From NCBI GenBank assembly GCA_000708525.1, contig JMRP01000001.1, positions 186,001 to 250,000 of the forward strand: DNA of 64,000 nucleotides, given 5' to 3'. This document shows, one piece after another, positions 28,400-61,448 of this stretch; the stretch's first letter is position 1; each line of letters starts with the position of its first letter. Origin of the DNA: Cyanobium sp. CACIAM 14 (lineage in GTDB: Bacteria; Cyanobacteriota; Cyanobacteriia; PCC-6307; Cyanobiaceae). The position numbers were made by a program, and so were the translations under genes. The notes below the pieces were generated by a model that saw nothing but the letters and a program-made list of their open reading frames with translations, had not been told where the DNA came from and did not search any database.

Positions 28400-28750
28400 A
28401 TGGAGGATCTCTACGTGCTGCGTCCCTCCGGGTTCATCGATGCGGAGAAGGGACTGGAGCTTCGCCACACCATCGGCGACCTGGTCGCGGCCCGCCCCCA
28501 GGACATCCTGATCGACTGCGCCGGAGTCGACTTCATGGACAGCAGCGGCTTCGGGTGTCTGGTGGCCACTCTCAAGCGGGTGCGGGAACAGGGACGCCAG
28601 CTCTATCTGTGCAGCCTCAGCTCCCAGCTCCGCATGGTCCTCGAGCTCACCGGCACCGACCGGGTCTTCACCGTCTTCCCCGGTTACGAGGAGTGCCTCG
28701 CCCATCTGCGCTCGGCCCGCCCGCTCACACCTCCGCCTCCGGCACGCTGA
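28400..28750 (+). CDS. STAS domain protein (anti-sigma-factor antagonist-like)
   Basis: A 116-residue single STAS domain like SpoIIAA/RsbV. The phosphorylation loop is VDFMDSSGFG (S48/S49). Such proteins are phosphorylated by RsbW-type kinases and dephosphorylated by PP2C-type phosphatases in partner switching. It converges with the phosphatase gene (28725-29399) and overlaps it by 26 bases, so the pair forms a natural regulatory unit with the RsbW-like gene at 44597. Confidence 0.9.
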   Translation: MEDLYVLRPSGFIDAEKGLELRHTIGDLVAARPQDILIDCAGVDFMDSSGFGCLVATLKRVREQGRQLYLCSLSSQLRMVLELTGTDRVFTVFPGYEECLAHLRSARPLTPPPPAR

Positions 28751-29399
28751 CCAGTAGGAGGGAATAGTCGTCGGGGAACCCGTCACCGGCCGCGCGGCGC
28801 CTCACCTGCTCCACCAGATGGTCGAGGGCCCGTGGACCCTGGAGCTGGGCACGGCACTCCTCCACCAGGGCGAGGAACTCCGGCAGCGTCCCCATTGCCC
28901 CACCGGCCTGGGGGAGTTCGTAGATGCCGTCGCTGTAGACCAGCAGGGAGAAGGGACCGCGCAGATCCACGTTGGTGGTCCCGTAGGTGGCGTCCTCGAA
29001 GAGCCCCAGGGCCAGCCCATGGCCCGAGAGCCGGCTCAGAGGCGCCCCGCTGCCGGGGGACCAGAGCAGGGCCGGGGGATGGCCGGCACTGGCGTAACGG
29101 AGCCGGCGCCGATCCCTCGCATACACCCCGTACCACATCGTGAGGTAGCGGCCCTGCTGGCGCTCCATCGCGAAGGCGGTGTTAAGCGCCGCCAGGACGG
29201 CGTCGGGTTGGCGCAGATCCACCCGCAGCGAGCCGGAGCGAAGCACGTTGTGCAGGGAGATGGAGGGGAAGGCCGCCGCGAGGCCATGGCCCGAGGCATC
29301 GGCGAGGTAGAGCGCGAAGTGATCCTCGTCGATCCAGAAATGGTCGAACACATCTCCCCCCAGCTCATGGGAGGGGACGAAGCGGGAGTGGACGGTCAT
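28725..29399 (-). CDS. SpoIIE/RsbU-type PP2C serine phosphatase
   Basis: A 224-residue phosphatase domain. The metal-binding acids are present in SHELGGDVFDHFW, LADASGHGLAAAF, LVYSDGIYEL and DDYSLLLVSV. These enzymes dephosphorylate STAS proteins. The ATG overlaps the stop of the upstream response regulator by 4 bases. In typical RsbU-like regulators a receiver, a coiled coil and this domain are on one chain, so the two genes look like one protein split at this point. Confidence 0.88.
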   Translation of the reverse strand: MTVHSRFVPSHELGGDVFDHFWIDEDHFALYLADASGHGLAAAFPSISLHNVLRSGSLRVDLRQPDAVLAALNTAFAMERQQGRYLTMWYGVYARDRRRLRYASAGHPPALLWSPGSGAPLSRLSGHGLALGLFEDATYGTTNVDLRGPFSLLVYSDGIYELPQAGGAMGTLPEFLALVEECRAQLQGPRALDHLVEQVRRRAAGDGFPDDYSLLLVSVPEAEV

Positions 29400-29920
29400 T
29401 CCGCCCGCCGAAGGGGGCTCGAGGGCGGGGGGAGGAGCGAGCGCACGTAGTCGGCCGCCTCGGCCAGCTCCGCATCCAGCCGCGATTTCTGCCGCTGCAG
29501 CTCCGCGGCGAGGTCCTGCAGACGTTCGTTCGCCTGGAAGAGGCGCACCCCGGCGCGCACCCGCGCCAGCAGCTCCTCCTGGTCGACGGGCTTGCTGAGG
29601 AAGTCGTCGGCGCCGGAGTCCAGGCCCAGCACGCGATCCTCGACCCGGGAGCGGGAGGTGAGGAGAATGAAATAGGTGGCTGCGAGATCGGCATCGGCCC
29701 GCAGGGCCCGGCAGACCTCCACCCCGTCCATGCCCTCCATCAGCCAGTCGCAGAGAACCACCACGGGGCGCTGCTGCCGGGCCAGCGCCAGCCCCTCCTC
29801 CCCGGAGGAGGCCATCGCCACCCCATAGCCCTCCCGCTGGAGCCGCGCCTGCAGAAGACGGGAGTGGATGCGGTCGTCATCCACCAGCAGGATCGTGAGC
29901 GGGGGAGGGGAGGACCCCAT
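29396..29920 (-). CDS. Response regulator with coiled coil, N-terminal half of a split RsbU-like protein
   Basis: A 174-residue protein with a receiver domain (VDDDRIHSRLLQARL, phospho-acceptor Asp in LCDWLMEGMDG, Thr in LLTSRSR, Lys in SKPVDQ) and a helix from about residue 128 (ERLQDLAAELQRQKSRLD). It ends with SLLPPPSSPLRRAE. PP2C-linked regulators carry SLLPPP at just this point, before the phosphatase domain, so the stop interrupts an expected fusion. Confidence 0.9.
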   Translation of the reverse strand: MGSSPPPLTILLVDDDRIHSRLLQARLQREGYGVAMASSGEEGLALARQQRPVVVLCDWLMEGMDGVEVCRALRADADLAATYFILLTSRSRVEDRVLGLDSGADDFLSKPVDQEELLARVRAGVRLFQANERLQDLAAELQRQKSRLDAELAEAADYVRSLLPPPSSPLRRAE

Positions 29921-29946: not shown

Positions 29947-32460
29947 TCAGACGTCCGCGGGCCGGAGCCGACGCAGGGCCTCGCTGACCCGGCCGGATTC
30001 GATCAGCAGCTCGTCGATGCCCTCCTGGGGCCAGGGAGCCGCAGGTGTGCGAAGGGTCTCCTCGATGCGGGTGCAGAGTCCGGACAGGGGCTTGGCGCCC
30101 AGGCTGGCGCTCGGGGAGCGCAGGGAATGGACGGCGGCGATCATGGCCGCCCGGTCACCGTTCTGCTGGGCCACCACCACCGCGGACACCAGCCGCAGGG
30201 CGTCCTCGAGGTAGAGATCCACGAGCTCCCGCAGCCCGGCATCGGCCTCCTCCCCGAGCACGCTGCGGAGTTCGTCCCATGCGGCCGGATCGATCGTCGA
30301 CGGCCGATCGCTGCCATCGTCCCCAGGCAGGGGGACAGTCACCGGCGGCCCGGAGCGTCCCGTCTGGGGCCGGTAGTGATCGAGGGCGTGGGCGAGGTCG
30401 GCCGGAGCGATGGGCTTGGCGAGGAAGTCGTCCATGCCGGCCTCCCGACTGGCCTGTCGATCCTCGCTGCGGGCGTGGGCCGTCATGGCGATGATCCAGG
30501 GGCGCACCGTCAGGCCCGGGAGCTCGCGGATGGCGCGGGTGGTGGCGTAGCCGTCGAGCCCCGGCATCTGGACGTCCATGAAGATCAGGTCGAAGGCGTG
30601 GAGTTGCACCAGACGGATCGCCTCCTCCCCCGAGGAGGCCACGTCGGCGCGATACCCCAGACGCAGGAGAAGCTGCAGCGCCAGCTTCTGATTCACCGGG
30701 ATGTCGTCGACCACCAGGATGCGCAGGGGCAGACGATCGGCGAGCCGGGGGACGGAGGGCGTCTCCAGCGGGACGGGAGGGGCTCCCGCGCCCCCGCCCT
30801 CAGGACCGTCCAGGAGCAGCTGAGCCAGGGCCGAGCGCAGCTGATAGGCCCGCACGGGCCGGGAGAGCACCTGGGCACGGAGCCCCACGGGCCAAGGCGT
30901 CGAGACACCCTGCCGGCCACGATCCAGCAGGAGTATCCAGGGGGCGCGGGCCCAGCGGGGGTCGCTCTGCCAGAGGGGGAACGCGGGTCCCTCACCGGCC
31001 AGGAAGGGGTGCCCATCGGCGACCACCGCTGCGAACGGCCCGGCCGCGGCCCCATCGCTGAGGTCCGAGGGCTGCTCCCCCAGGGGATCGGCGGCGGTGA
31101 CCGCCAGACCCAGCGCCTCCAGCTGGCGCCGGAGCACCCGGCGGAGGGTGGCGCCGGCGACCAGAAGGAGGAGGTGCGCACCGCCGGGGATGGGCGGGGC
31201 CTGAAGATCCGTCGGTCCCTGGGGATCGATCTCCAGGGGAAGGGTGAGGTGGAAGCAGCTGCCAGCCCCCTCCGCGCTGGAGACCTCGATGGCGCCTCCC
31301 ATCAGCTCGCAGAGCCGTCGGGTGATGGCCAGACCCAGTCCCGTACCCCCGTAGCGGCGGGCCATGGAGGGATCTCCCTGGTGGAACGGCTCGAAGAGGC
31401 GGGGCAGGCGTTCCGCAGGAATGCCGATGCCCGTGTCGCGGACGTCGATTCGGTAGAGGCGACCGCCCGTCTCCCGATCAGCGGAGGGACAGGACACGCC
31501 CACGACGATCTCCCCCCGCGGGGTGAACTTGACGGCGTTGCTCAGCAGGTTCCAGAGGATCTGCCGCAGGCGCGTGCGATCGCCGATCACGGCGGTCGGC
31601 AGGTCGGGATCGAGATCCAGGATCAGGTCCACGTCCTTGTCCGTCGCGCGGGTGGCCATCAGGTCGAGGGCCTCCTCCAGACACACGCCCAGATCGAAGA
31701 CCTGGCGATCCAGCTCCATGGAACCGGCCTCGATCTTGGAGAAATCAAGGATGTCGTTGATGATCGTCAGCAGGGAACCGGTGCTGCTGTTGATGATCTC
31801 CACATATTCCTTCTGCACCGGATCCAGAGACGTCTCCTGCAGCAATCCCGCCATTCCCATGATGGCATTCATAGGTGTTCGGATCTCGTGACTCATGGTG
31901 GCCAGGAAGGTGTCCTTGGCCGAGCTGGCTTCCTCGGCGGCCTGCTTCGCCTCCCGGAGCTCGGCACGCTGCTCCTTGAGAATGGCATTCAGCTGCTCAC
32001 TCTCCGCCAGAGCCACATTGCGGGCCTGGAGAAGGAAGAGATAATCCACCAGCGAATCCTGCAGGGCGAAATCGTTCACCTTCAGGCCCAGGCGGCCCAG
32101 TTCCTCGAGATCGGTGATCCAGGGCGATCCAACGAACAGCAAGGTGCCGCAGGGTTCCTCGCCCTCCCCCAGATCCTGCGGAAGATCGCAGATCTGTCCC
32201 TTCAGCTGCAGGGGGATCGCCAGTGCCTCGAGCATCACCATCTGGCCGATCGTGTCCCGCAGGATCTCGGCACTCAGGGGGGCCTCGGGGCGGTGCAGGC
32301 GAAAATGGTCGGCCAGGGGCGATCCCTCCAGGGCAGGGGCTGCAAGCAGACGGGCCAAGACGCTCCCGCTGCCGGCGATGCGCAGCTCCGCATCGAGCCG
32401 GAGATGGAACGGAAAGAGACGATCCACCAGTGTCGGCGGCAGTCGGAGGGGGAGACCCAT
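29947..32460 (-). CDS. H-NOX-associated hybrid histidine kinase (HNOBA, HisKA, HATPase, two REC, Hpt)
   Basis: A protein of about 837 residues. Residues 1-150 match the H-NOX-associated sensor domain ([19 protein letters not shown], then [11 protein letters not shown] and [14 protein letters not shown]). A coiled coil leads to the kinase, with H191 in [13 protein letters not shown]-box [18 protein letters not shown] and [13 protein letters not shown] degenerate receiver (about 427-550) lacks a clear acceptor. A second receiver has D629 in [13 protein letters not shown]. The C-terminal Hpt has H778 in AAVHSLRS. The ATG at 32460 lies 17 bases after the H-NOX stop. This is a full phosphorelay kinase. 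Confidence 0.9.
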
Positions 32461-32476
32461 CAGACGGAAGCCGGCC

Positions 32477-33043
32477 TCACGACGGGGAGGCGTCCTCGCC
32501 GTAGCGGATGTGGAATAGATCCTGGCCGTCGCCATGGTCGCGGGAGGCGGTCTGCTCCACCTGCACCGGGGTGCTGAAGCGGCGTCCCAGCCCGTGAAGC
32601 AGGCCCACCACCATCGGGGCCAGCCCCTGACGGCGGGAGCGGTATTCCAGGTCGAGGGAGCGCCCATCCGCGTGGCGGCAGCGGAAGGAGGGAGGCTGGA
32701 GCTGGGGGAAGGCCAGGCCGGCCCGGGCGTGCATCGTGTCGAGGTGGTCGAGGAATTCCGGCAGGGTTTCGCCGGTGCTCTCCAGGAGCTGCTCGTAGCC
32801 CTCGGTGGCGGTGTAGGTGATCCAGTACTCGCCGAAGGCGTGCATGATCTCTGCAGCCGTGAGCCCTAGTTCCTCTGAGGCGGCCGCCACCAGCCGGTGG
32901 GTCACGTCGTCGGGATAGGCCTGATAGGTGGAGAAGAAGTCAAGATCCGCCAGATTCGCCTTCTCCTTGATCCGTTGCCAGATGTCTACCCCATGGTGCG
33001 TGCATACCATCTGCTGGATGGCCCGGTTGACGAGGCCGTACAT
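32477..33043 (-). CDS. H-NOX heme-based NO/O2 sensor
   Basis: A 188-residue H-NOX domain protein ([20 protein letters not shown]). The proximal heme ligand is H105 in [16 protein letters not shown], and the heme-propionate motif YxSxR is Y134-R-S-R-R138. Family members bind nitric oxide, some also oxygen, and regulate a partner kinase. Distal-pocket polar residues for oxygen binding were not resolved. It sits 6 bases from the upstream polysaccharide gene and 16 bases from the HNOBA kinase, so it is in the same operon as both. Confidence 0.95.
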
Positions 33044-35861: not shown

Positions 35862-36938
35862 TCACCAGTTCTGAATGATTCCCACAGGCGTAACAACTTC
35901 GCCGATGGTGCGGATGATATCCCGTAACGTTGTGTATCCCGAATCATAGCAGGCAACAGAGTCGTTGTTCATGAGGTAGGGATTGTCAGCGTCGTTCCTG
36001 GAGTGCATGAGAAGAGAATCCACCTTTCGCTCTAGATATTTCGTCTCGCCTGTCCTCTCATTGGTCCGAACCAGGATGGCATATCGGCCTGCATTGGTGA
36101 AGCGGGTCCCTCCGGCACAGTTTCCTGCCACGACTGCCTGGGAGAATCGTGAGCCATAGGAGAAGGAGGTCGCGTCCCGGCTAATCCCGGAAATGGCATT
36201 TCCTGTTGCCGGAACGGTGAGGTTCGATATGAAGATCTTCACGCCAGTCATCGTGATCGGTGAAGGCCTCACCAATGCATTGTTCACCTGCCCGGTGGAT
36301 GGGACCACCACCTGATCGCCGGCAATGAGCGGAACATCCTGCGTCGGTTCGCCGGTGAAGAAACCCGAGAAGTCATAGGATGTCTCTTTGCCATTGCGGA
36401 TGAGCCGGATCGACGCCACGTCAGCCGTGGGCTTGATGCCGCCGGCGAAGCGAAGGGCAACCGAAAGGAAGCGGTTGGGGGAGTATTGCCCAGTCACGGC
36501 GATCGGGGGGGGCTCGGCTTCCTCGGGTGCTTTCTCGTTGATCATCACGCGCCCCGGCAGAAAGACCTCACCGGCGATGAAGACGCCAATCGGGGCCCAC
36601 TTGACGACATTCACGCCGATTCGCAGGAACGAGGGCTGAAAGAAGCGGCCGCTGATCAGCTCCCTCCGCAGTTTCTCCTTGACCTTCTCCGGCTCCAGCC
36701 CCACCACGGACAGGGGTGCGAGGTAGGGGATCTCGATCTTTCCATCGATCGATACCTCGTAGATGCCGCTGAACTCCTCGCCATCCACGATGCTGATCTT
36801 GATGCGGTCTCCCGGAGAGAGGGGCAGTGCCGAGGCTCCGCTAGCCAGAATCGTCCCCTGCAGGACCGCGCCAGCAATGCATTGGAGCCCCCTTCGGCCG
36901 AGGGAACGCACGCGAGTGACCCGTTTCCATGTCTGCAT
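35862..36938 (-). CDS. Polysaccharide export protein (Wza-like, SLBB)
   Basis: A 358-residue protein with a signal-like N-terminus (AGAVLQGTILASGASALPLS), then the PES domain (GDRIKISIVDGEEFSGIYEV, IEIPYLAPLSVVGL) and SLBB-type strands. Wza-type proteins form the outer-membrane channel for capsule and exopolysaccharide. No lipobox cysteine is evident. It is the first gene of the minus-strand operon and is divergent from the pyruvyl transferase gene. Confidence 0.88.
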   Translation of the reverse strand: MQTWKRVTRVRSLGRRGLQCIAGAVLQGTILASGASALPLSPGDRIKISIVDGEEFSGIYEVSIDGKIEIPYLAPLSVVGLEPEKVKEKLRRELISGRFFQPSFLRIGVNVVKWAPIGVFIAGEVFLPGRVMINEKAPEEAEPPPIAVTGQYSPNRFLSVALRFAGGIKPTADVASIRLIRNGKETSYDFSGFFTGEPTQDVPLIAGDQVVVPSTGQVNNALVRPSPITMTGVKIFISNLTVPATGNAISGISRDATSFSYGSRFSQAVVAGNCAGGTRFTNAGRYAILVRTNERTGETKYLERKVDSLLMHSRNDADNPYLMNNDSVACYDSGYTTLRDIIRTIGEVVTPVGIIQNW

Positions 36939-37124: not shown

Positions 37125-38222
37125 ATGCCGGTGCGAGCACACCTCGGTTTGATCAATACCTATTCTTCCCTCAATATCGGGGACGCTGCTATCTATTCTG
37201 CCCTGGCGGCTCTGCTGGGGAAGGAGTACGAGATTCTGGCTGCCGTGGGAGACGATCCGCCGCGGATGATGCCTGGCCTCGTCCTATGCCCTGCTCTTCC
37301 CGTTTGCGATGTCTATCTGAGTGTCGGTGGCGACATCTTCAACAATTCTCGTGAATGGTTCCTCACCCGCCGCTTTCTTGGCAATCTCTCTGCACTCATG
37401 CGCTATCCGGATCGGACCATTCTCTTCGGTCAGTCCATCCCCGCCTCCTGCCATGGGTTCAGCTTCCAGTTGCTTGTCCGCTGTCTGCGGCGACTACCGG
37501 CGATCTGCGTACGGGATGCCCTGAGCCATCGTCGCCTGCTCGCGGCCGGGATCCAGGCACGGCTCTCCTACGACACCGCTTTCGCACTGCAGGGGTCGGC
37601 CCCGGCTCGCGAACACGCCCGTTCCCTGCTCCGCCAGGAGGAGATCGACCCCACCCAGTCCGCCCTGATCTCCGTCCGACCCTTCAGCTCCATGTACCGG
37701 CACAACAACGAGCGCTTCGTCGCTGGCCTGGCCCGGCTCTGTCGGCTTCTCGCAGATGCCGGGCTGCGCCCGCTGCTGCTGCTGCAGTCCCTGGCCCATG
37801 GTCCTGATCATGATGCCGCCGTCGCCGCGGAGATCGCGGCCCGGGAACCAAGGGCCAGGCTCGTCGATCCCTTCCACTGGGCCGGTGGAGAGGTAGCCGA
37901 CTGGGATCTTCTGATGGCGATCTTTCAGCTCGTCGGCCTCATCATCGGCGTCCGCTACCACACCTGTGTCCTGGCCCTGGCGGCGGGCCGCTTGCCCTAC
38001 AACCTCCACTATTCGAACAAGGGAAGAGATCTCAGCGAACGCCTGGGAATCCCGGGGATCGGCGTGGAGCACTTCGATCCCGATGCCCAGTTCCAGGACA
38101 TTCTCCGCACGGCGGAGAGGCGTTGGGATCCGGCTGCTGTGCGCGACCATGTGGGCAGATCACTCCGGGAGTGCCTCCGGATCCTTGAGGAGCCCGGTGT
38201 CTCGGGCCGTCACCATCAGTAG
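37125..38222 (+). CDS. Polysaccharide pyruvyl transferase family protein
   Basis: A 365-residue protein beginning GLINTYSSLNIGDAAIYSAL, the conserved start of the pyruvyl-transferase fold (also in CsaB). Further blocks are GGDIFNNSREWF, LFGQSIPASCHGF and IGVRYHTCVLALAAG. It adds a ketal-linked pyruvate from PEP to sugars of the exopolysaccharide, making it acidic. It leads the plus-strand operon. Confidence 0.85.
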   Translation: MPVRAHLGLINTYSSLNIGDAAIYSALAALLGKEYEILAAVGDDPPRMMPGLVLCPALPVCDVYLSVGGDIFNNSREWFLTRRFLGNLSALMRYPDRTILFGQSIPASCHGFSFQLLVRCLRRLPAICVRDALSHRRLLAAGIQARLSYDTAFALQGSAPAREHARSLLRQEEIDPTQSALISVRPFSSMYRHNNERFVAGLARLCRLLADAGLRPLLLLQSLAHGPDHDAAVAAEIAAREPRARLVDPFHWAGGEVADWDLLMAIFQLVGLIIGVRYHTCVLALAAGRLPYNLHYSNKGRDLSERLGIPGIGVEHFDPDAQFQDILRTAERRWDPAAVRDHVGRSLRECLRILEEPGVSGRHHQ

Positions 38223-38265
38223 AGTCGAGCCTGCCCATGGATGTTCCCCTGGCCCACTCGCCTTC

Positions 38266-39264
38266 ATGAAGGTTCTCCACATCTTGCCGCCGGGGGGCAT
38301 GAGCTGGGGGGGTGGCATTCCGGCGACCTTGACGAGTCTTGCCGAAGCGCCTGAACTGGCCTGGGTCTCGTTCCGTCAGGTTCCCCTGGAGGAAGCCGAG
38401 GTCGAAATCCGGACCTGGGCTCCCGATCTGTTCCTCTGGCATCCTGCCTGCAGCTGGCGACTGCTGCCGGGGCTCTTCCGCCTCGGCAGGGGGCGCTCTC
38501 TTCCCGGCATCGGCCTAGAACATCATTACTGCGAGGGGTTCGAGCGTCTCAAGGTTCCGAGCCAGCGCCGGTTCCGGACCCTGCTCCGCTTGTCCTACGG
38601 CTGCCTGGATCGGCTGGTCTGCGTCTCCCATGGGCAGGCTCGCTGGGTCACGGCGGCTCGGCTGGCGGATCCCAACCGGGTGCGCGTCATCCCCTTCAGC
38701 CGCACCCTGGATGACTTTTTCCAGCTCCCACTGGATCGGGAGGAGCACCGGCCCTTCCGACTCGGCGCCTACGGCCGGTTCGTGGAGCAGAAGGGCTTCC
38801 AGGCGTTGATCGAGGCGGTGCTGTTATTGCCGCGGGGCACGGTGGAACTCCGGCTGGGGGGTGGTGGCGAACTTGACTCCTCGTTGCGTCAGAAGGCTGA
38901 CCGCCACCCGGACATCCATTTCCATGGCCCCCTCACCGACGTGCCGGCCTTCCTCGCCGCCTGCGATGCCGTCGCCGTTCCCTCCCTCTGGGAGCCCTGG
39001 GGGAATGTCTGCCTCGAGGCCAGGGCGGCCGGGCGGCCGGTGATCGTCACCGCCGTGGATGGGCTGAGCGAGCAGGTGGACGGGGAGCGGGGCCTGCTGG
39101 TCCCCTCCGGGTCCCCGCAGGACCTGGCAGAGGCCATCGCCGATCTGGCGGCGCGGCCGCCGGAGCGTCTTCGCGCCATGGCGGAAGCGGCCCGCCGGAG
39201 TGCCCTTCCCTCCTGGTCCGACTTCACCGGTTCCTGGAACCACCTGCTGCGCGAATACCGGTGA
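38266..39264 (+). CDS. Glycosyltransferase family 4 protein
   Basis: A 332-residue GT-B glycosyltransferase. It begins MKVLHILPPGGMSWGGGIPA and has the phosphate-binding EX7E motif in PSLWEPWGNVCLEARAAG. It probably transfers a sugar from a nucleotide donor during repeat-unit assembly at the inner face of the membrane. The start ATG is 44 bases after the previous gene. The stop overlaps the flippase start by 4 bases. Confidence 0.88.
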   Translation: MKVLHILPPGGMSWGGGIPATLTSLAEAPELAWVSFRQVPLEEAEVEIRTWAPDLFLWHPACSWRLLPGLFRLGRGRSLPGIGLEHHYCEGFERLKVPSQRRFRTLLRLSYGCLDRLVCVSHGQARWVTAARLADPNRVRVIPFSRTLDDFFQLPLDREEHRPFRLGAYGRFVEQKGFQALIEAVLLLPRGTVELRLGGGGELDSSLRQKADRHPDIHFHGPLTDVPAFLAACDAVAVPSLWEPWGNVCLEARAAGRPVIVTAVDGLSEQVDGERGLLVPSGSPQDLAEAIADLAARPPERLRAMAEAARRSALPSWSDFTGSWNHLLREYR

Positions 39265-40535
39265 GGTTCCCATTCCTGCTCCGCCGTTTGCGTCCAGAGG
39301 ATCGGTTCGTCCGCAACGTCGGCTGGATGGGGCTCTCGGAGGTGGGCATTCGCCTCTCCCGGCTACTCGCCACGGTCATCCTGGCGCGTCTGCTGACGCC
39401 CCACGACTATGGCCTGGCAGCGCTCGTGCTGACGACGCATGAATTCATCCGCGTATTCACGAAAAACGGGATCGGCGAGAAGCTGGTGCAGGCCGGTGCC
39501 GACGAGGTGGCCGAGCTCTGCGACACCGCCTTCACCCTGAGTTGGGCGCTCGGTGGCGTCCTGTTTCTGGTGCAGTGCCTGGGATCCTTTGCGGTAGCGC
39601 ACTTCTACCGTCAACCGGAACTGGTGACCCCGATCGTTCTGATCGCCTTCACCTATCTGATCTACCCCCTCGGCTCCGTGCAGACGTCCCTGATCCTCAG
39701 GGAGAACCGGATGAACGTCTTCGGGCTCACCAACCTGGCATCGGTGGTGACCGACAACCTGCTGATTGCCATCTTGGCCCTGCGGGGATTCGGCATGTGG
39801 TCGATCATCATCCCGAAATTTCTCATTGCACCGATCTGGGTAATCATGGTTTACAGATTCCACTCCTGGCGTCCAAGCTGGCATTTCACTCTCAGACACT
39901 GGCGACGCATTCTCGGTTTCGGATCTAGAATCCTCGGTGTGGAGATGCTTAATACTCTGAGGGAAAACATCGATTACCTTCTGATCGGCCGCTTCCTCGG
40001 GGTTGTCCCTCTCGGTACCTATTACTTCGCCTTCAACGCCGGACTGGGCTTGAGCCTCAGTGCCGTCAATGCAATGGGGGTGTCCCTCTACTCCGACCTC
40101 TGCGATGTGCGGCATGACCTTGATCTTCTGCGACAGAAATATCAGCGGAACCTATCCACCATCGCCAAGGTGATCTTCCCCCTGGTGGTCCTTCAGTCTT
40201 CCCTGGCTCCCTTCTACGTCCCCCTCGTCTTCGGTCAAAAATGGGTGGAACGGGGCGCGGTTCCCATCCTGATCCTGATCTGTCTGTCCGCCCTCTCCCG
40301 CCCCTTCGCCGGCGCCGCGTCGATGCTGTTCCGTGCCATCGGCCTTCCCCAGGTGGACCTCTGGTGGAACCTGGGATTCACCCTGGTCCTGGCCTTTGCC
40401 GTGCTGGCCGGAACCCAGTTCGGCATCGTCGGCGTCGCCTTGGCCGTGCTGCTCACCCATCTGCTGCTGCAGCCCGTGTTCGCCCTCTGGGCGAGGCAGG
40501 TGGTGCTGATCCGGCCGGCGGCCTGGATCCGATGA
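39261..40535 (+). CDS. Wzx-type polysaccharide flippase (oligosaccharide transporter)
   Basis: A 424-residue membrane protein of the MATE-like polysaccharide transporter family. The N-terminus has NVGWMGLSEVGIRLSRLLAT and ILARLLTPHDYGLAAL, typical of Wzx/RfbX-like flippases. It has about twelve membrane segments. It would move lipid-linked repeat units to the periplasmic side. The start is a GTG overlapping the previous stop. Its middle part is AT-richer than its ends. Confidence 0.88.
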   Translation: MRFPFLLRRLRPEDRFVRNVGWMGLSEVGIRLSRLLATVILARLLTPHDYGLAALVLTTHEFIRVFTKNGIGEKLVQAGADEVAELCDTAFTLSWALGGVLFLVQCLGSFAVAHFYRQPELVTPIVLIAFTYLIYPLGSVQTSLILRENRMNVFGLTNLASVVTDNLLIAILALRGFGMWSIIIPKFLIAPIWVIMVYRFHSWRPSWHFTLRHWRRILGFGSRILGVEMLNTLRENIDYLLIGRFLGVVPLGTYYFAFNAGLGLSLSAVNAMGVSLYSDLCDVRHDLDLLRQKYQRNLSTIAKVIFPLVVLQSSLAPFYVPLVFGQKWVERGAVPILILICLSALSRPFAGAASMLFRAIGLPQVDLWWNLGFTLVLAFAVLAGTQFGIVGVALAVLLTHLLLQPVFALWARQVVLIRPAAWIR

Positions 40536-40538
40536 TCC

Positions 40539-41504
40539 ATGTCCTGCGCTGAGATCTCCATCGTGTTGCCGGCCTACAACGCCGGCGCCTTTCTGCGCTC
40601 CACCCTCGCCAGCGTCCGCCGCCAGTCCTTCCGGGATTGGCAGCTGCTCGTGGTCGACGATGGCTCGACGGACGACACGGCCGCCATCGTGCGGGAGATC
40701 CAGGCCGAGGATCCCCGCATCGAAGTGCTCTCGGTGGCCAACGGCGGCGTCTCCCGTGCGCGCAATCTGGGTATCGGCCACAGCCGTGCTCCCCTGATCG
40801 CCTTCCTCGACGCCGACGACCTCTGGGCCAGCGACTGCCTCGCGGTCCACCGGGAGCACCTGCGGCAGGATCCGGATCTGGGTGTCAGCTTCGGACTCGT
40901 CGAACTGCTCACCCCCGGAGGTGTACCTACGGGCAAGATCTGCCGGGCCCCCAGGGCGCCCCTGAGCGCCGCCCAGCTGCTCGCCGAGAACCTCACGATC
41001 ACCACCTCGAACTGGGTGGTCCGGCGACGGCTGTTCGAGGAGATCGGTGGGTTCGACCCCGACCTCAGACACTGTGAGGACCTCGAGTGGCTCCTGCGGC
41101 TCCGCTGCCGCTCCTCCTGGCGCATCCAGGCGGTTCCCAGGGTGACCACCTTCTACCGCAGCAGCGAAGGCGGACTCTCTTCCCAGTTGCCCCGCATGGA
41201 GGAGGGCTGGCTGCGGATGGCGGACCACGTCCGTTCCTACGCCCCGGACCTGATCGCGCGGGAGGGGGCGCTGGCGCACGCCATCCAGCTTCGCTACTTG
41301 GCGCTGCGGGCGACGCGGCTGGGTCTCCCCCTGCCCCTGGCCTGGGGGTATCTGCGGCGCGCGGTGCGCCGGGACGGACGCCTCCTGGTACGCCAGCCCA
41401 GGCCTACCCTCGGAGCCGTGATGACGCTCCTGCGCCGCACCCTCACCGGCGTGTTCCATCGCCGCGGACCCGCCGCCCCGGGACGTTCCTCCGGACGCCG
41501 CTGA
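40539..41504 (+). CDS. Glycosyltransferase family 2 protein
   Basis: A 321-residue GT-A enzyme: IVLPAYNAGAFLRSTLASV, VVDDGSTDDTAAI and the DxD-type AFLDADDLW. The ED-x-EW acceptor-site motif is in HCEDLEWLLRLRC. It adds one sugar of the repeat unit. The 3' part (after about residue 240) resembles that of the next gene, suggesting the two arose by duplication. Confidence 0.9.
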   Translation: MSCAEISIVLPAYNAGAFLRSTLASVRRQSFRDWQLLVVDDGSTDDTAAIVREIQAEDPRIEVLSVANGGVSRARNLGIGHSRAPLIAFLDADDLWASDCLAVHREHLRQDPDLGVSFGLVELLTPGGVPTGKICRAPRAPLSAAQLLAENLTITTSNWVVRRRLFEEIGGFDPDLRHCEDLEWLLRLRCRSSWRIQAVPRVTTFYRSSEGGLSSQLPRMEEGWLRMADHVRSYAPDLIAREGALAHAIQLRYLALRATRLGLPLPLAWGYLRRAVRRDGRLLVRQPRPTLGAVMTLLRRTLTGVFHRRGPAAPGRSSGRR

Positions 41505-41514
41505 TGCCCTTCTG

Positions 41515-42618
41515 ATGCCGCCCCTCGTCTCCGTCGTCGTCCCCGTCTACAACGCCGCCGCCACGGTGGTGGCGGCCGTTGAGTCGGTGCTGGCCCAGAC
41601 CCATCGCGATCTGGAGGTGCTGATCGTCGACGACGGCTCCCCCGACGACAGCATCGAGCGCTGCCGCCGCCTCGGCGACCCCCGCATCCTGATCCTGCAG
41701 CAGGCCAACCGCGGCCTGGCCGGAGCCCGCAACACCGGCATCCGGCACTGCCACGGCGCCTTCATCGGCTTCCTCGACAGCGATGATCTCTGGGATCCCG
41801 CCAAGGTGGAGCGCCACCTGGAGCATTTCCGCCGCCGTCCGGAGGTGGGCCTGAGCTTCTCCTGTTCCCGCTTCATCGACGAGGCGGGGGAACCGCTCGG
41901 GATCCTGCAGCTAGGGCGCCTCACCGACATCACCCCTCAATACCTGTTCTGCCGCAATCCCATCGGCAACGGTTCCTCCGTCCTGATGCGGCGCGAGGCC
42001 CTCGAGGCGATCGCCTTCCGGGCGAATGTCCATGGGGAGGAAGAAACCTTCTACTTCGACGACACCTTCCGCCAGTCCGAGGACGTGGAGTGCTGGCTGC
42101 GCCTGGCGCTCACCACCGACTGGCGGATCGAGGGCATCCCCGACGTGCTCACCTCCTACCGGGTGAACAACAGCGGACTCTCGGCCAACGTGATGAAGCA
42201 GTACGAATCATGGCAAAGAGTGCTGGCCAAGGCCTCCTCCTACGCGCCCGACTTCGTGCGGCTCCACGGCGACCAGGCCCGCGCCTACCAGCTCCGCTAC
42301 CTGGCCCGCCGGGCCACACAGCTGCGCCTGCCCGCTCTGGCGCTGCGCCTGATCCACCGGGCTCTGCTGCTGCACTGGCAGCTGCTGCTCGAGGAGCCCC
42401 GGCGCACGCTGATCACCCTGCTGGCGGCCTGGCTGCTGCTGCTCCTGCCGCCACCGCTCTATCGCCGCCTGGAGGCGGCGATGTTCTCCTTCACAGGCGC
42501 CAGCCAGCGCCGCACCATCGCGCGCAGCCAGAGGCGTGGCGCCCGCTCGGCGGAGGCGGCGCTGCCACCGGGAAGCGCCGGGGAAAACGGTTCGATCGGA
42601 GGTTGGTCCAGGCGATGA
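41515..42618 (+). CDS. Glycosyltransferase family 2 protein
   Basis: A 367-residue GT-A enzyme with VVVPVYNAAATVVAAVESVL, IVDDGSPDDSIE, FLDSDDLWDPAK and the acceptor motif QSEDVECWLRLAL. A hydrophobic stretch near residues 302-320 (ITLLAAWLLLLLPPPLY) may anchor it to the membrane. The product is a likely paralogue of the previous gene. The stop overlaps the pssD start (ATGA). Confidence 0.9.
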   Translation: MPPLVSVVVPVYNAAATVVAAVESVLAQTHRDLEVLIVDDGSPDDSIERCRRLGDPRILILQQANRGLAGARNTGIRHCHGAFIGFLDSDDLWDPAKVERHLEHFRRRPEVGLSFSCSRFIDEAGEPLGILQLGRLTDITPQYLFCRNPIGNGSSVLMRREALEAIAFRANVHGEEETFYFDDTFRQSEDVECWLRLALTTDWRIEGIPDVLTSYRVNNSGLSANVMKQYESWQRVLAKASSYAPDFVRLHGDQARAYQLRYLARRATQLRLPALALRLIHRALLLHWQLLLEEPRRTLITLLAAWLLLLLPPPLYRRLEAAMFSFTGASQRRTIARSQRRGARSAEAALPPGSAGENGSIGGWSRR

Positions 42619-43070
42619 AGATCCTCCTGGTCGCCTCCGCCGACGCCAACCTGCGGGGCCTCCGTCTGCTGGAACCGTTCTGGTCGCGGCATCGCCGCCT
42701 CTGGGTGACCGGCCAGGGGGTCGCGGTGCCTCCCGAACTGGCAGGTGAGAGCATGATCCGCGCCCACGGCCCCACCCACCGCAATCTTCCGAACCTGCTG
42801 CGCAACGCCCTGCTGGCCCTGAGCCTGCTGCTGCGCGAACGGCCGCGGCTGATCGTCGCCACAGGAGCCGGCGTCGCCGTGCCGTTCCTGATCCTGGGCC
42901 GCCTTCTCGGCGCCAGCACCGTGTACATCGAATCGATCACCCGCACCGAGAGTCTGAGCCTCACCGCCCGTCTTTCGCTGCCGTTCCTCAGCGTGATCTA
43001 CGTGCACTGGCCCCAGCTGCAGCGCCGGGTTCCCTGGGCGGAACTGATCGTTCCCGAGGAAGCATCGTGA
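42615..43070 (+). CDS. PssD/Alg14-like N-terminal glycosyltransferase subunit
   Basis: A 151-residue protein with MKILLVASADANLRGLRLL and ATGAGVAVPFLILGRLLGAS, typical of the acceptor half of split GT28 (Alg14/PssD) enzymes. A membrane-associated helix is likely near residues 50-80. It works only together with the PssE-like donor half encoded next. Start and stop codons overlap on both sides. Confidence 0.82.
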   Translation: MKILLVASADANLRGLRLLEPFWSRHRRLWVTGQGVAVPPELAGESMIRAHGPTHRNLPNLLRNALLALSLLLRERPRLIVATGAGVAVPFLILGRLLGASTVYIESITRTESLSLTARLSLPFLSVIYVHWPQLQRRVPWAELIVPEEAS

Positions 43071-43597
43071 TCCTCGTGCACCTCGGCGAGGAGCCGTTCC
43101 GCTTCGATCGTCTGCTGGGATGGCTGGAGCTGTTCCTGCGGAGGGGCTTCCTGGCGGAGGAGCTGCTCGTGGTGGGTGGCGACGGGCAGGCACTGCCGGC
43201 CCAGCTGCGGGACCACCGCGCGCCGGCGGGAGCCGCGTTCGCGCCCCTGGCCGCCCGGGCCCGCGCCGTCATCGCCGATGCCGGCGAGTCGACCCTGCAG
43301 CGGCTCGAGGACGTGGAGACCCCCTTCCTTCTGGTGCCCCGCTCCCAGCGCTTCGGAGAACAGGTAGACGATCACCAGGTGGAGCTGGCGCTGGTCCTCG
43401 GCGACCTGGGTGTGCCGATCGCCTGGGGGCCGGGGGATCTGCTGCGGTTCCTCGCCGCGCCTCGCCGCGCTGCCCTCGCCGATCTCTCCGGCGGCTCGGC
43501 CCGGGCCCTATGCCAGGCCCTGGAGCGGCGGTTCCCTGCTCCGGTGCCCCAGGTCAACTCCCCAGAGCGCCACCAGGGAAGGGGGGAGCGGCGATGA
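43067..43597 (+). CDS. PssE/Alg13-like C-terminal glycosyltransferase subunit
   Basis: A 176-residue protein: MILVHLGEEPFRFDRLLGWL, then ADAGESTLQRLEDVETPFLL and RSQRFGEQVDDHQVELA, the donor-binding GT28 C-terminal domain. Together with the PssD-like protein it forms one active glycosyltransferase. The stop overlaps the start of the sugar transferase gene. Confidence 0.85.
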   Translation: MILVHLGEEPFRFDRLLGWLELFLRRGFLAEELLVVGGDGQALPAQLRDHRAPAGAAFAPLAARARAVIADAGESTLQRLEDVETPFLLVPRSQRFGEQVDDHQVELALVLGDLGVPIAWGPGDLLRFLAAPRRAALADLSGGSARALCQALERRFPAPVPQVNSPERHQGRGERR

Positions 43598-44592
43598 GCG
43601 ACGCCCTCCCGAGCAGCCAGCACTTGGAGCGGACGCAGCTCCCGACCGGAGCCCTTCTGGTGCGTCTGCCGGAACGCCTCACAGTGCGCGAGGCAGTGCC
43701 GTTCCGCGAGGCCTTCGAATCCCTGCTGAGGGACGATCCCGCCACGGTGATCCTCGACTGCGCCGGCCTGACCCTGATCGACAGCAGCGGCATCGGCGCG
43801 TTGGTCGGCGCGCTCAAGGCGGGCCGCCATACCGGGATCCCGCTGGAGGCCTGGAGCGTGGGCGGACAGGTCCGCCTGGCGCTGGAGCTGGCGGGGCTCG
43901 AGCGGATCCTGCCCATCGAACCCCGCACCGAGGCGCTGCCCGCCCGCAGCGACCAGCGCCCGACGGCCCGACCGCCCCTCACCCATCCCTCCGTGCGCTG
44001 CCGGCCGAAGCGCCTGCTCGACGTGGTGGGGGCGCTGGTGGGCCTGGCGATCACGGCGGTGCTGTTCCTGCCGATCGTTCTCGCCATCCGGCTCGACTCG
44101 CCGGGGCCGATTCTCTTCGGCCAGGTCCGCTGCGGCTGGATGGGACGGCGCTTCCGGCTGTGGAAGTTCCGCTCGATGGTGAGCAACGCCGAGGCCCTGC
44201 GAGCCAGCGTCCCCAACCAGGCCAGCGGGGCGATCTTCAAGAACGACGCCGATCCGCGCATCACCCGCGTCGGTCGCCTCCTGCGCCGCACCAGCCTCGA
44301 CGAGCTGCCCCAGTTCTGGAACGTGCTGGTCGGCGACATGAGCCTGATCGGCACCCGCCCGCCCACTCCCGACGAGGTGGAGCGCTACGCGATCCCCAGC
44401 TGGCAGCGGTTCGACGTGCGCCCGGGGATGTCGGGCGAATGGCAGGTGAGCGGTCGCTCCAGCATCCGCGACTTCGAGGATGTGATCGCCCTTGATCTCC
44501 GTTACCAGGAGCGCTGGAGCTTCCTCTACGACCTGAAGCTGATCCTGCGCACCCTGCGGGTGATCTTCAGCCGAGAATCGGGAGCCGCCTGA
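43594..44592 (+). CDS. STAS domain fused to initiating sugar transferase (polyprenyl glycosylphosphotransferase)
   Basis: A 332-residue protein with an unusual domain order. Residues about 12-115 form a STAS domain with the phosphorylation loop TLIDSSGIGAL (S64/S65). Residues about 145-330 form the bacterial sugar transferase: KRLLDVVGALVGLAIT, LDSPGPILFGQVRCGWMG, RLWKFRSMV, RRTSLDELPQFWNVL, and RPGMSGEWQVSGRS. That enzyme moves the first sugar phosphate onto undecaprenyl phosphate. The usual CoA-binding or multi-helix N-terminus is absent. The ATG overlaps the previous stop; an RsbW-like kinase gene follows after 4 bases. The STAS domain is probably a regulatory switch. Confidence 0.92.
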   Translation: MSDALPSSQHLERTQLPTGALLVRLPERLTVREAVPFREAFESLLRDDPATVILDCAGLTLIDSSGIGALVGALKAGRHTGIPLEAWSVGGQVRLALELAGLERILPIEPRTEALPARSDQRPTARPPLTHPSVRCRPKRLLDVVGALVGLAITAVLFLPIVLAIRLDSPGPILFGQVRCGWMGRRFRLWKFRSMVSNAEALRASVPNQASGAIFKNDADPRITRVGRLLRRTSLDELPQFWNVLVGDMSLIGTRPPTPDEVERYAIPSWQRFDVRPGMSGEWQVSGRSSIRDFEDVIALDLRYQERWSFLYDLKLILRTLRVIFSRESGAA

Positions 44593-44596
44593 ACCG

Positions 44597-45067
44597 GTGG
44601 ACACGCCCCCCCCCGTTGCGAGCCAGCGGCTCCGCGTCGCCAGTTCCCTGGATCGGCTGGAGGAGGTGCTGGCCTGGTTCGCGCGCCTGCGCCACCCGCC
44701 GCTGCCCGAGATGCTGTGGGTGCAGGGGGAGACTGCGCTGGTGGAGGCCTTCTCCAACGCCGTGCGCCATGCCCACGGGCCCCTGGCCGATCCGCCGCCG
44801 GTGGAGCTGGAGGCCTGGCTGGGCGAGGCCGAGTTCGGCCTGGTGATCAGCGATCACGGCCCCCCCTTTGATCTCCGCCAGGCCCTCGACGACCTGCAGG
44901 GCCTGGTGGACTCCCCGGACTTCGACCCGCTGGAGCGCGGCGAGCACTGGGGGCTGATCTTCCTGCTCCGCCTGCGCGACGAGCATGGCTGGTCGATCGG
45001 TCTGGAGCGGACCCGCGAAGGCCGCAACCGCCTTCGGGTGAGCCACCCCCTGGGTACGGCCAGCTAG
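44597..45067 (+). CDS. RsbW-like serine kinase / anti-sigma-type ATPase
   Basis: A 156-residue GHKL ATPase of the HATPase_c_2 class. The N-box is ALVEAFSNAVRHAHGP (E50, N54), and the G1-like motif is VISDHGPPFDL. The family phosphorylates the DSSG serine of STAS partners. The nearby candidate partners are the STAS domain of the sugar transferase just upstream and the STAS protein at 28400. The G2 lid is short (GEHWGLIFL). The stop overlaps the next, convergent gene by 4 bases. Confidence 0.88.
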   Translation: MDTPPPVASQRLRVASSLDRLEEVLAWFARLRHPPLPEMLWVQGETALVEAFSNAVRHAHGPLADPPPVELEAWLGEAEFGLVISDHGPPFDLRQALDDLQGLVDSPDFDPLERGEHWGLIFLLRLRDEHGWSIGLERTREGRNRLRVSHPLGTAS

Positions 45068-47704: not shown

Positions 47705-47735
47705 TTGCGAAACCCATCTCAAGTGATCCTATACA
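47705..47735 (+). promoter_or_regulatory. Candidate sigma-70 promoter of the WecG-family gene
   Basis: The sequence TTGCGA (47705-47710) and TATACA (47730-47735) are separated by 19 bases, close to a housekeeping promoter, and lie 27 bases before the ATG. The region is AT-richer than the flanks. Confidence 0.4.
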
Positions 47736-47761
47736 GTCCGGGCACCCGAGGATCCGGCACC

Positions 47762-48562
47762 ATGGATCAGAGGCCTCTCCTGGATCGCGTTCGCCTCCTG
47801 AATCTCGACATCGACAATCTGACGATGGACGAACTCCTGGAGCGTCTCGATCGCGGTGTTGTCTATACCCCCAACGTTGATCATCTGCTGCAGCTGCAGG
47901 ACGATCCCTCCTTCTTTGTAGCTTACGAGGACGCTGATTTCCGTGTCTGCGACAGTCAACTTCTGATTTTTGCGGCGCGTGTCCTCGGTACCCCACTGCG
48001 CCAGAAACTCTCAGGATCGGATCTGTTTCCGGCATTCTGCCGCTTTCATCGCAACCATTCCAATGTCACGATCTTTCTGCTTGGTGCTCGCGAGGGCGTG
48101 GCCGCCCAGGCCCAGGGACGGATCAACGCCCGCATTGGCCGTCAGATCGTCGTAGGAACCTACTCCCCTCCGTTCGGCTTTGAGAACGACCAGGGCGAAT
48201 GCGAGCACATCCTGCAGCAGGTGGAACGCTCAGGTGCCACGGTGCTCGCGGTGGGTCTCGGAGCCCCCAAGCAGGAACGCTTCATTCATCGCTTTCGCTC
48301 CCGTTTGTCCTCGGTGCGTATCTTCCTGGCGATCGGAGCCACAATCGACTTCGAGGCAGGTACCCTGAGCCGTTCACCGGGCCTCCTGAGCAGCCTTGGG
48401 CTGGAGTGGTTCTACCGCCTCTGTCGCGAGCCTCGGCGCCTGTGGAGACGCTATCTCTGGAAGGGTCCCCGCTTCTTCTGGCTGCTGCTGCTGCAGCGTC
48501 TTGGCCTCTACCGAGATCCTTGGAAACGTCAGCTCCGAGCCGCTGTGGAGCCAGAGGACTGA
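47762..48562 (+). CDS. WecG/TagA/CpsF family glycosyltransferase
   Basis: A 266-residue GT26 enzyme. Family blocks are YTPNVDHLLQLQDDPSFFVA (catalytic Asp region), FRVCDSQLLIFAARVLG, FLLGAREGVA, and AVGLGAPKQERFIHRF. It usually adds the second sugar (ManNAc/ManNAcA-like) to the lipid-linked precursor after the initiating transferase. It is separated from the main plus-strand operon and has its own promoter. Its GC content is lower than its neighbours. Confidence 0.88.
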   Translation: MDQRPLLDRVRLLNLDIDNLTMDELLERLDRGVVYTPNVDHLLQLQDDPSFFVAYEDADFRVCDSQLLIFAARVLGTPLRQKLSGSDLFPAFCRFHRNHSNVTIFLLGAREGVAAQAQGRINARIGRQIVVGTYSPPFGFENDQGECEHILQQVERSGATVLAVGLGAPKQERFIHRFRSRLSSVRIFLAIGATIDFEAGTLSRSPGLLSSLGLEWFYRLCREPRRLWRRYLWKGPRFFWLLLLQRLGLYRDPWKRQLRAAVEPED

Positions 48563-61079: not shown

Positions 61080-61448
61080 ATCACCGACCTGCAGCGACTG
61101 ACCGTCTCCCTGAGAGGGGGCTGCGAACGGCAGGAGCAGTGCCTGCTGTTCGGGTTCACAGGCCAACTCGACGCCTACTCCGACAAGCAGTTCACCGATT
61201 TCGTCAGCGACCACGCCCAGGGCGAGAGCCTTCCCGTCGTGATCGACCTCAGTCGCATCGATTTCATCGACTCCTCCGGTCTCGGTGCTCTGGTCCAGCT
61301 GGCCAAGCAGTTCAACGAAAGCTCCCGTCAGTTCCTCGTGGTCGGCAACGCCCGCGTCGTCCAGACCGTCAAGCTGGTGCGCCTGGAGTCCTTCCTGCAC
61401 CTGCAGCCCGATCTGGAGTCCGCCCTTGGCAGCCTCGCCACCGCCTGA
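61080..61448 (+). CDS. STAS domain protein (anti-sigma-factor antagonist-like)
   Basis: A protein of about 122 residues, one STAS domain: TDLQRLTVSLRGG, FTGQLDAYSDKQF and the phosphorylation loop IDFIDSSGLGALV. No ATG, GTG or TTG lies close before the domain; ATC at 61080, after AGAGG, is the best-placed codon, and a TTG at 61011 is the only standard alternative. A TACACT box at 61042-61047 would leave the TTG upstream of transcription start. Candidate partner for the PP2C phosphatase and RsbW-like kinase. Confidence 0.75.
   Translation: MTDLQRLTVSLRGGCERQEQCLLFGFTGQLDAYSDKQFTDFVSDHAQGESLPVVIDLSRIDFIDSSGLGALVQLAKQFNESSRQFLVVGNARVVQTVKLVRLESFLHLQPDLESALGSLATA

Follow-up and report, generated by a model that had tools for sequence, protein, structure and literature searches.

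A STAS domain fused to a priming sugar transferase across the cyanobacteria, and the predicted partner switch around it in Cyanobium sp. CACIAM 14

In Cyanobium sp. CACIAM 14 a gene within a polysaccharide cluster encodes a STAS domain joined in frame to a priming sugar transferase (PGT). This is a real regulatory fusion that occurs throughout the phylum, in public genomes and in one protein that has been studied; no published description of such a switch, nor of a STAS-sugar transferase fusion or its regulation, was found in the open-access literature. We consider it likely that the locus encodes a partner switch that does without a sigma factor and has the EPS priming enzyme as its output. 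A sequence-only reading of the same DNA had proposed that a regulator normally acting on sigma factors serves here as an enzyme switch, an interpretation that is partly supported overall; that reading was silent on the free STAS and REC/PP2C genes at 28.4-29.9 kb and on the studied relative, XssP. All coordinates below are those of the window, the whole 64-kb stretch of DNA analysed.

The fusion protein and its polysaccharide locus

The open reading frame of the fusion starts with ATG, with GGGGAG just 5' of the start, and both of its domains score above their Pfam cut-offs, residues 17-112 matching STAS (51.5 bits, cut-off 22.6) and residues 139-325 matching Bac_transf (PF02397, 210.1 bits, cut-off 27), the monotopic PGT core. 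The protein is a PF02397-family PGT with an RsbV-like STAS domain, and the proposal that a STAS domain is fused to the initiating sugar transferase within one 332-residue ORF is correct. The linker between the two parts (residues ~113-137) contains an HPSV motif. The phosphorylation loop that the sequence-only reading had called intact is present as D63-S64-S65-G66, in which S64 sits at the position of the serine that is phosphorylated in SpoIIAA/RsbV. With TIGR00377 (ant_ant_sig) the fusion scores 39.7 bits, short of the curated cut-off of 53.45. The enzyme is predicted to move sugar-1-phosphate onto undecaprenyl phosphate; its relative XssP is needed for EPS.

The models for large PGTs (WbaP/WcaJ, TIGR03025/03023/03022) match the fusion over its C-terminal ~190 residues only and below every curated cut-off, and we therefore describe the protein as a small (PglC-type) PGT core to which a cytosolic domain of the RsbV type is joined, rather than as a large PGT. 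Replacement of the usual N-terminus, as had been claimed, is seen in that a phospho-acceptor STAS domain sits where large PGTs have their large N-terminal region. An AlphaFold2 model of the fusion, built from 52 orthologues (mean pLDDT 85.8, with the linker at ~111-130 poorly modelled), was compared with known structures using Foldseek. Its C-terminal half matches PglC (8e37, 8g1n; best E 3e-14), with helix 137-168 as the membrane-inserting helix found in the PglC-like fold, and its N-terminal half matches SpoIIAA and RsbV as bound to their kinases (1tid, 6m36). The catalytic core and its DE dyad are common to the fusion, to PglC among the small PGTs and to WbaP/WcaJ among the large ones, but PglC is without a regulatory domain and WbaP carries membrane and other N-terminal domains where the fusion has STAS. 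A STAS domain of the SulP type was also considered and rejected, as both the fold and the loop are RsbV/SpoIIAA-like.

The fusion is the third gene in an operon-like run of Alg14-like, Alg13/PssE-like, fusion and GHKL genes (Table 1). An Alg14/Alg13-type pair just 5' of a priming enzyme is typical of a second transferase, one that works on the lipid once it has been primed. Because Wzx, Wza-like, GT2, GT4, pyruvyl transferase and WecG-type genes surround the fusion, we assign the region to Wzx-dependent exopolysaccharide or capsule synthesis.

Table 1. Features of the window that bear on the fusion and its predicted regulation
Feature	Position	Strand	Basis or remark
Free STAS protein, MDSSG loop	28400-28750	+	Candidate antagonist competing for the GHKL protein
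PP2C phosphatase, SpoIIE/RsbU-type	28725-29399	-	
Response-regulator receiver (REC)	29396-29920	-	Directly upstream of PP2C, ATGA overlap
Hybrid histidine kinase, HNOBA region and Hpt	29947-32667	-	Candidate input
Wza-type polysaccharide export protein	35862-36938	-	
Pyruvyl transferase, GT4 and two GT2 genes	37125-42618	+	Remainder of the cluster
Wzx-type flippase	39261-40535	+	Polysaccharide cluster
Alg14/PssD-like glycosyltransferase half	42618-43070	+	Same operon as fusion
PssE/Alg13-like glycosyltransferase half	43067-43597	+	ATGA overlap with fusion start
STAS-PGT fusion, 332 aa	43594-44592	+	ORF, Pfam, fold model
Predicted phospho-acceptor loop, D63-S64-S65-G66 codons	43780-43791	+	Loop invariant in orthologue alignment
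Catalytic D236-E237 codons, SLDELPQ motif of monotopic PGTs	44299-44304	+	Invariant in both orthologue alignments
RsbW/SpoIIAB-type GHKL protein, predicted Ser kinase and STAS partner	44597-45067	+	Pfam, profile, fold
WecG/TagA/CpsF-type glycosyltransferase	47729-48562	+	

Distribution of the fusion and conservation of the serine loop

Across the order, 299 genomes yielded 22 full-length fusions and one with a frameshift that separates STAS from PGT, none with an E-value poorer than 1e-109; the next-best transferases in these genomes lie at 1e-45, so that the fusion group is clearly separate. One of the 22 contains a stop codon in frame within the matched region, and one further fusion is truncated by a contig end. 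The frameshifted copy (L226/L047 in genome G010), in which the STAS and PGT parts are in different frames, is possibly a natural split or a sequencing error. Exceptions to the intact fusion are found in two genomes, G142 (L222) and G291 (L223), where a deletion has left the last ~45 PGT codons beside an intact GHKL gene, giving natural cases of a GHKL gene without its PGT.

The search across cyanobacteria that had been suggested for this domain order shows it to be phylum-wide and not peculiar to Cyanobium sp. CACIAM 14, with about 90 fusions in 386 genomes and Nostoc, Richelia, Microseira, Laspinema, Pseudanabaena and Synechocystis among the carriers. With ~90 distinct in-frame fusions across the phylum, a frameshift, a chance ORF or an assembly join was rejected as the source of the gene. 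A STAS profile detected no STAS domain on non-cyanobacterial PGTs among the best 80 loci, and of 1036 plasmid records those of Synechocystis are the only ones in which the match was traced into a STAS domain.

A lack of conservation of the DSSG serine among orthologues had been named beforehand as refuting the proposal, as had a missing STAS part in relatives; neither test went against it. The loops of the 92 distinct fusions are DSSG in 90, DSAG in one and DSAA in one (XssP), hence the first serine, like the Asp-Ser pair as a whole, is kept in 92/92. Relatives with the same operon in which the STAS part is absent were also looked for and none was seen, both Pfam domains being matched in 52/52 aligned members of the family.

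The GHKL gene and other putative parts of the switch

The gene that follows the fusion, which the sequence-only reading had called a GHKL kinase, is of the RsbW/SpoIIAB type by Pfam, profile and fold, and its product is a predicted kinase. It begins with GTG, 4 bases past the stop codon of the fusion. The protein matches HATPase_c_2 with 52.6 bits, its profile finds RsbW (6m36) by sequence at 2e-12, and its model (pLDDT 93.5) has structure matches to SpoIIAB (1til), to RsbW (6m37) and also to the SiaB-SiaC structure 6kko; against the NCBIfam RsbW equivalog models it scores ~20 bits, below their cut-offs of 145-155. Identity as a histidine kinase was rejected, as HATPase_c_2 is matched in 32/32 cases and HATPase_c as well in only 6. 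The N-box residues E50 and N54 and the glycine G119 are invariant, and D86 and G88 of the G1 Asp-x-Gly are nearly so. The ATP lid reads GRG in many relatives and HWG here, the first glycine of GxG being lost in HWG, and therefore kinase activity cannot be assumed; the protein may bind without phosphorylating.

It had been proposed that co-occurrence with RsbW-like genes be checked, and within the order this association is complete. The GHKL gene lies immediately 3' of the fusion in 23/23 loci, and an independent search for the GHKL protein found it in 26/299 genomes, always beside a fusion or its remnant (26/26), these being the 23 fusion loci and three others, where only a remnant of the fusion is left or the contig ends within it. 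Phylum-wide, a GHKL gene is found <1 kb from 52/92 distinct fusions; the other 40, mainly the ordinary Nostocaceae copy, are without an adjoining GHKL gene in the available sequence, and the genomes with this ordinary copy have RsbW-like GHKL genes elsewhere, some of them adjoining PP2C and STAS genes. Since the genome holds other STAS, GHKL and PP2C sets, a general RsbW/RsbV system might by chance have come to adjoin a sugar transferase whose STAS domain has decayed, but the conservation of the arrangement in many cyanobacterial families, the invariant loop and the perfect co-occurrence in the order make such a coincidence extremely improbable.

The two proteins also vary together. In a pairwise-distance (mirror-tree) comparison of 51 linked fusion-GHKL pairs, a form of correlation that shared ancestry and similar rates may inflate, STAS distances followed GHKL distances with r 0.83, and the partial correlation was 0.53 for STAS-GHKL after control for PGT compared with 0.23 for PGT-GHKL after control for STAS. 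The STAS-GHKL partial correlation was reached in 0/2000 permutations, and outside the order the corresponding values were 0.64 for STAS-GHKL and 0.12 for PGT-GHKL. Where the STAS domain has a W-S motif following the DSSG helix, the lid of the GHKL protein reads HWG (or QWG); the other STAS domains almost all go with lids of the RG type. This co-variation fits an interacting STAS-GHKL pair and, because related sequences are not independent, falls short of proof. It also bears on a structural explanation, by which the STAS domain would serve dimerisation or the recruitment of glycan enzymes in place of the large-PGT N-terminal region, its serine loop being kept for folding or partner contact and not for phosphorylation. 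Such a module would agree with the function of XssP with a DSAA loop and with the many Nostocaceae copies that have no linked GHKL gene, but the near-invariant DSSG, the tight GHKL linkage and the co-variation would be unexpected of a purely structural domain, and we regard this explanation as rather unlikely. We think it quite likely instead that the phosphorylation state of S64, set by the adjoining GHKL protein, controls the PGT.

Further candidate parts lie ~14 kb upstream of the fusion, where a free STAS gene and REC/PP2C genes are found, such that a partner-switch set of GHKL protein, serine-bearing STAS and PP2C is encoded entirely within the window. In some loci of the Nostoc/Richelia type the fusion, GHKL, free STAS and PP2C genes all fall within ~3 kb, and loci of the Laspinema type hold the same four parts within a few kb (together L055-L058, L082, L083, L092, L101 and L208); within the order, PP2C lies within ~10 kb of the fusion in only a few loci. 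The REC and PP2C genes of the window (28725-29920) are two ORFs and the PP2C ORFs of relatives are single, of ~390-415 codons, which points to a split or a frameshift. The heme-NO-binding-associated (HNOBA) region of the hybrid kinase suggests a possible gas or redox input. A second free STAS gene with an FIDSSGLG loop is present at 61125-61424 (+), and a separate STAS-GHKL-PP2C set lies elsewhere in the same genome, on contig C27 (15386-17368), its STAS loop reading LASIG, without the acceptor DSSG.

No sigma-70 gene was found in the window, the nearest on the contig being >100 kb off; the genome has seven sigma-70-type loci and free STAS proteins. Judged from its genes, the system appears partner-switch-like without the feature of a sigma output, and an anti-sigma role is not implied. 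Information could nevertheless flow the other way, with the membrane-bound STAS-PGT, as sensor or anchor, keeping the GHKL protein at the membrane according to the state of the lipid carrier or of assembly, so that the enzyme reports flux and the true output of the GHKL protein, a sigma factor or a free STAS, lies elsewhere. The sigma-70-type loci and free STAS proteins of the genome would provide such outputs, the altered lid suits binding more than catalysis, and the GHKL gene persists beside the PGT remnants of G142 and G291. Those remnants, however, resemble recent deletions, the GHKL gene is otherwise never without the PGT in the order, and no sigma factor is linked, all of which makes this reverse flow unlikely.

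Comparison with known systems and a proposed mechanism

RsbV-RsbW and SpoIIAA-SpoIIAB of Bacillus resemble the two proteins here in the fold of each partner and in the DSSG loop but differ in having a sigma factor as output, a free-standing STAS protein and another GHKL lid. In the known RsbW/RsbV chemistry, the GHKL protein binds and phosphorylates the serine of the STAS protein. A partner switch that acts directly on an enzyme is provided by SiaA/SiaB/SiaC/SiaD of Pseudomonas aeruginosa, where the target is the diguanylate cyclase SiaD. The likeness to the present locus extends to the SiaB-SiaC structure among the fold matches of the GHKL protein, but SiaC and SiaD are separate proteins, and the target is a cyclase rather than a PGT.

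The studied relative, XssP (sll5057) of Synechocystis sp. PCC 6803, has the same STAS-PGT architecture, with 50.9% identity over 85% of the query. Synthesis of synechan is primed by XssP, and cells from which it has been deleted form no blooms and have suppressed EPS (PMC8205485). It differs from the Cyanobium fusion in its DSAA loop and in having no GHKL gene in its 30-kb locus, and no mention of its STAS domain was found in the XssP literature searched. The Synechocystis-type loci L004, L258-L260 and L262 form an XssP-like subclade with DSAA, DSSA or DSSG loops and no GHKL gene nearby; in L260 and L262 a free STAS gene adjoins the fusion.

In function the nearest systems, along with SiaABCD, are two whose STAS proteins are tied to polysaccharide. 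SypA of Vibrio fischeri, the STAS protein of a polysaccharide locus, is phosphorylated by SypE on the equivalent serine and exerts post-transcriptional control on a target that is unknown (PMC4517449). SypA is a free protein and SypE combines kinase and phosphatase in one, whereas here the STAS domain is fused to its candidate target. HmpU/HmpV/HmpW of Nostoc punctiforme, a set of STAS, RsbW and PP2C proteins, is tied to motility and polysaccharide, with the STAS effector undefined (PMC6495340, PMC8256260). HmpV is a free STAS protein, unlike the fused domain here, and no link between HmpV and a PGT was found in either of these two papers.

We propose a scheme in which the STAS-PGT would occupy the place that the sigma factor holds in SpoIIAB/RsbW systems. 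The GHKL protein would bind the PGT through its STAS domain while this is unphosphorylated, phosphorylate S64, or do both, and so turn the transferase off. A signal passing through hybrid kinases and the REC protein would activate the PP2C phosphatase, which would dephosphorylate the free STAS protein, and this in turn would capture the GHKL protein. The STAS-PGT, thus freed (or dephosphorylated), would begin glycan synthesis by placing sugar-1-phosphate on undecaprenyl phosphate. That the enzyme is on when unphosphorylated and free of the GHKL protein is a direction to which we give even chances, proposed by analogy because the unphosphorylated STAS protein is the active form in SypA and HmpV.

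We hold it somewhat more probable than its opposite that a partner switch present throughout the cyanobacterial phylum directly targets the enzyme of the first committed step in EPS synthesis, the STAS-PGT standing in for the sigma factor, and that, by the argument from fusion, SypA and HmpV may likewise have their priming transferases as targets. Several bacterial STAS switches, SypA and HmpV among them, control polysaccharide or biofilm without a known target; a natural fusion that is found phylum-wide and often with a kinase gene names a concrete one, the priming transferase, together with a single residue, S64, and XssP of Synechocystis 6803 offers a tractable relative. EPS shapes the blooms, biofilms and motility of cyanobacteria. 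If the proposal is true, its production would be set at the first enzymatic step, with no new transcription, and the switch could offer a means of controlling EPS yield.
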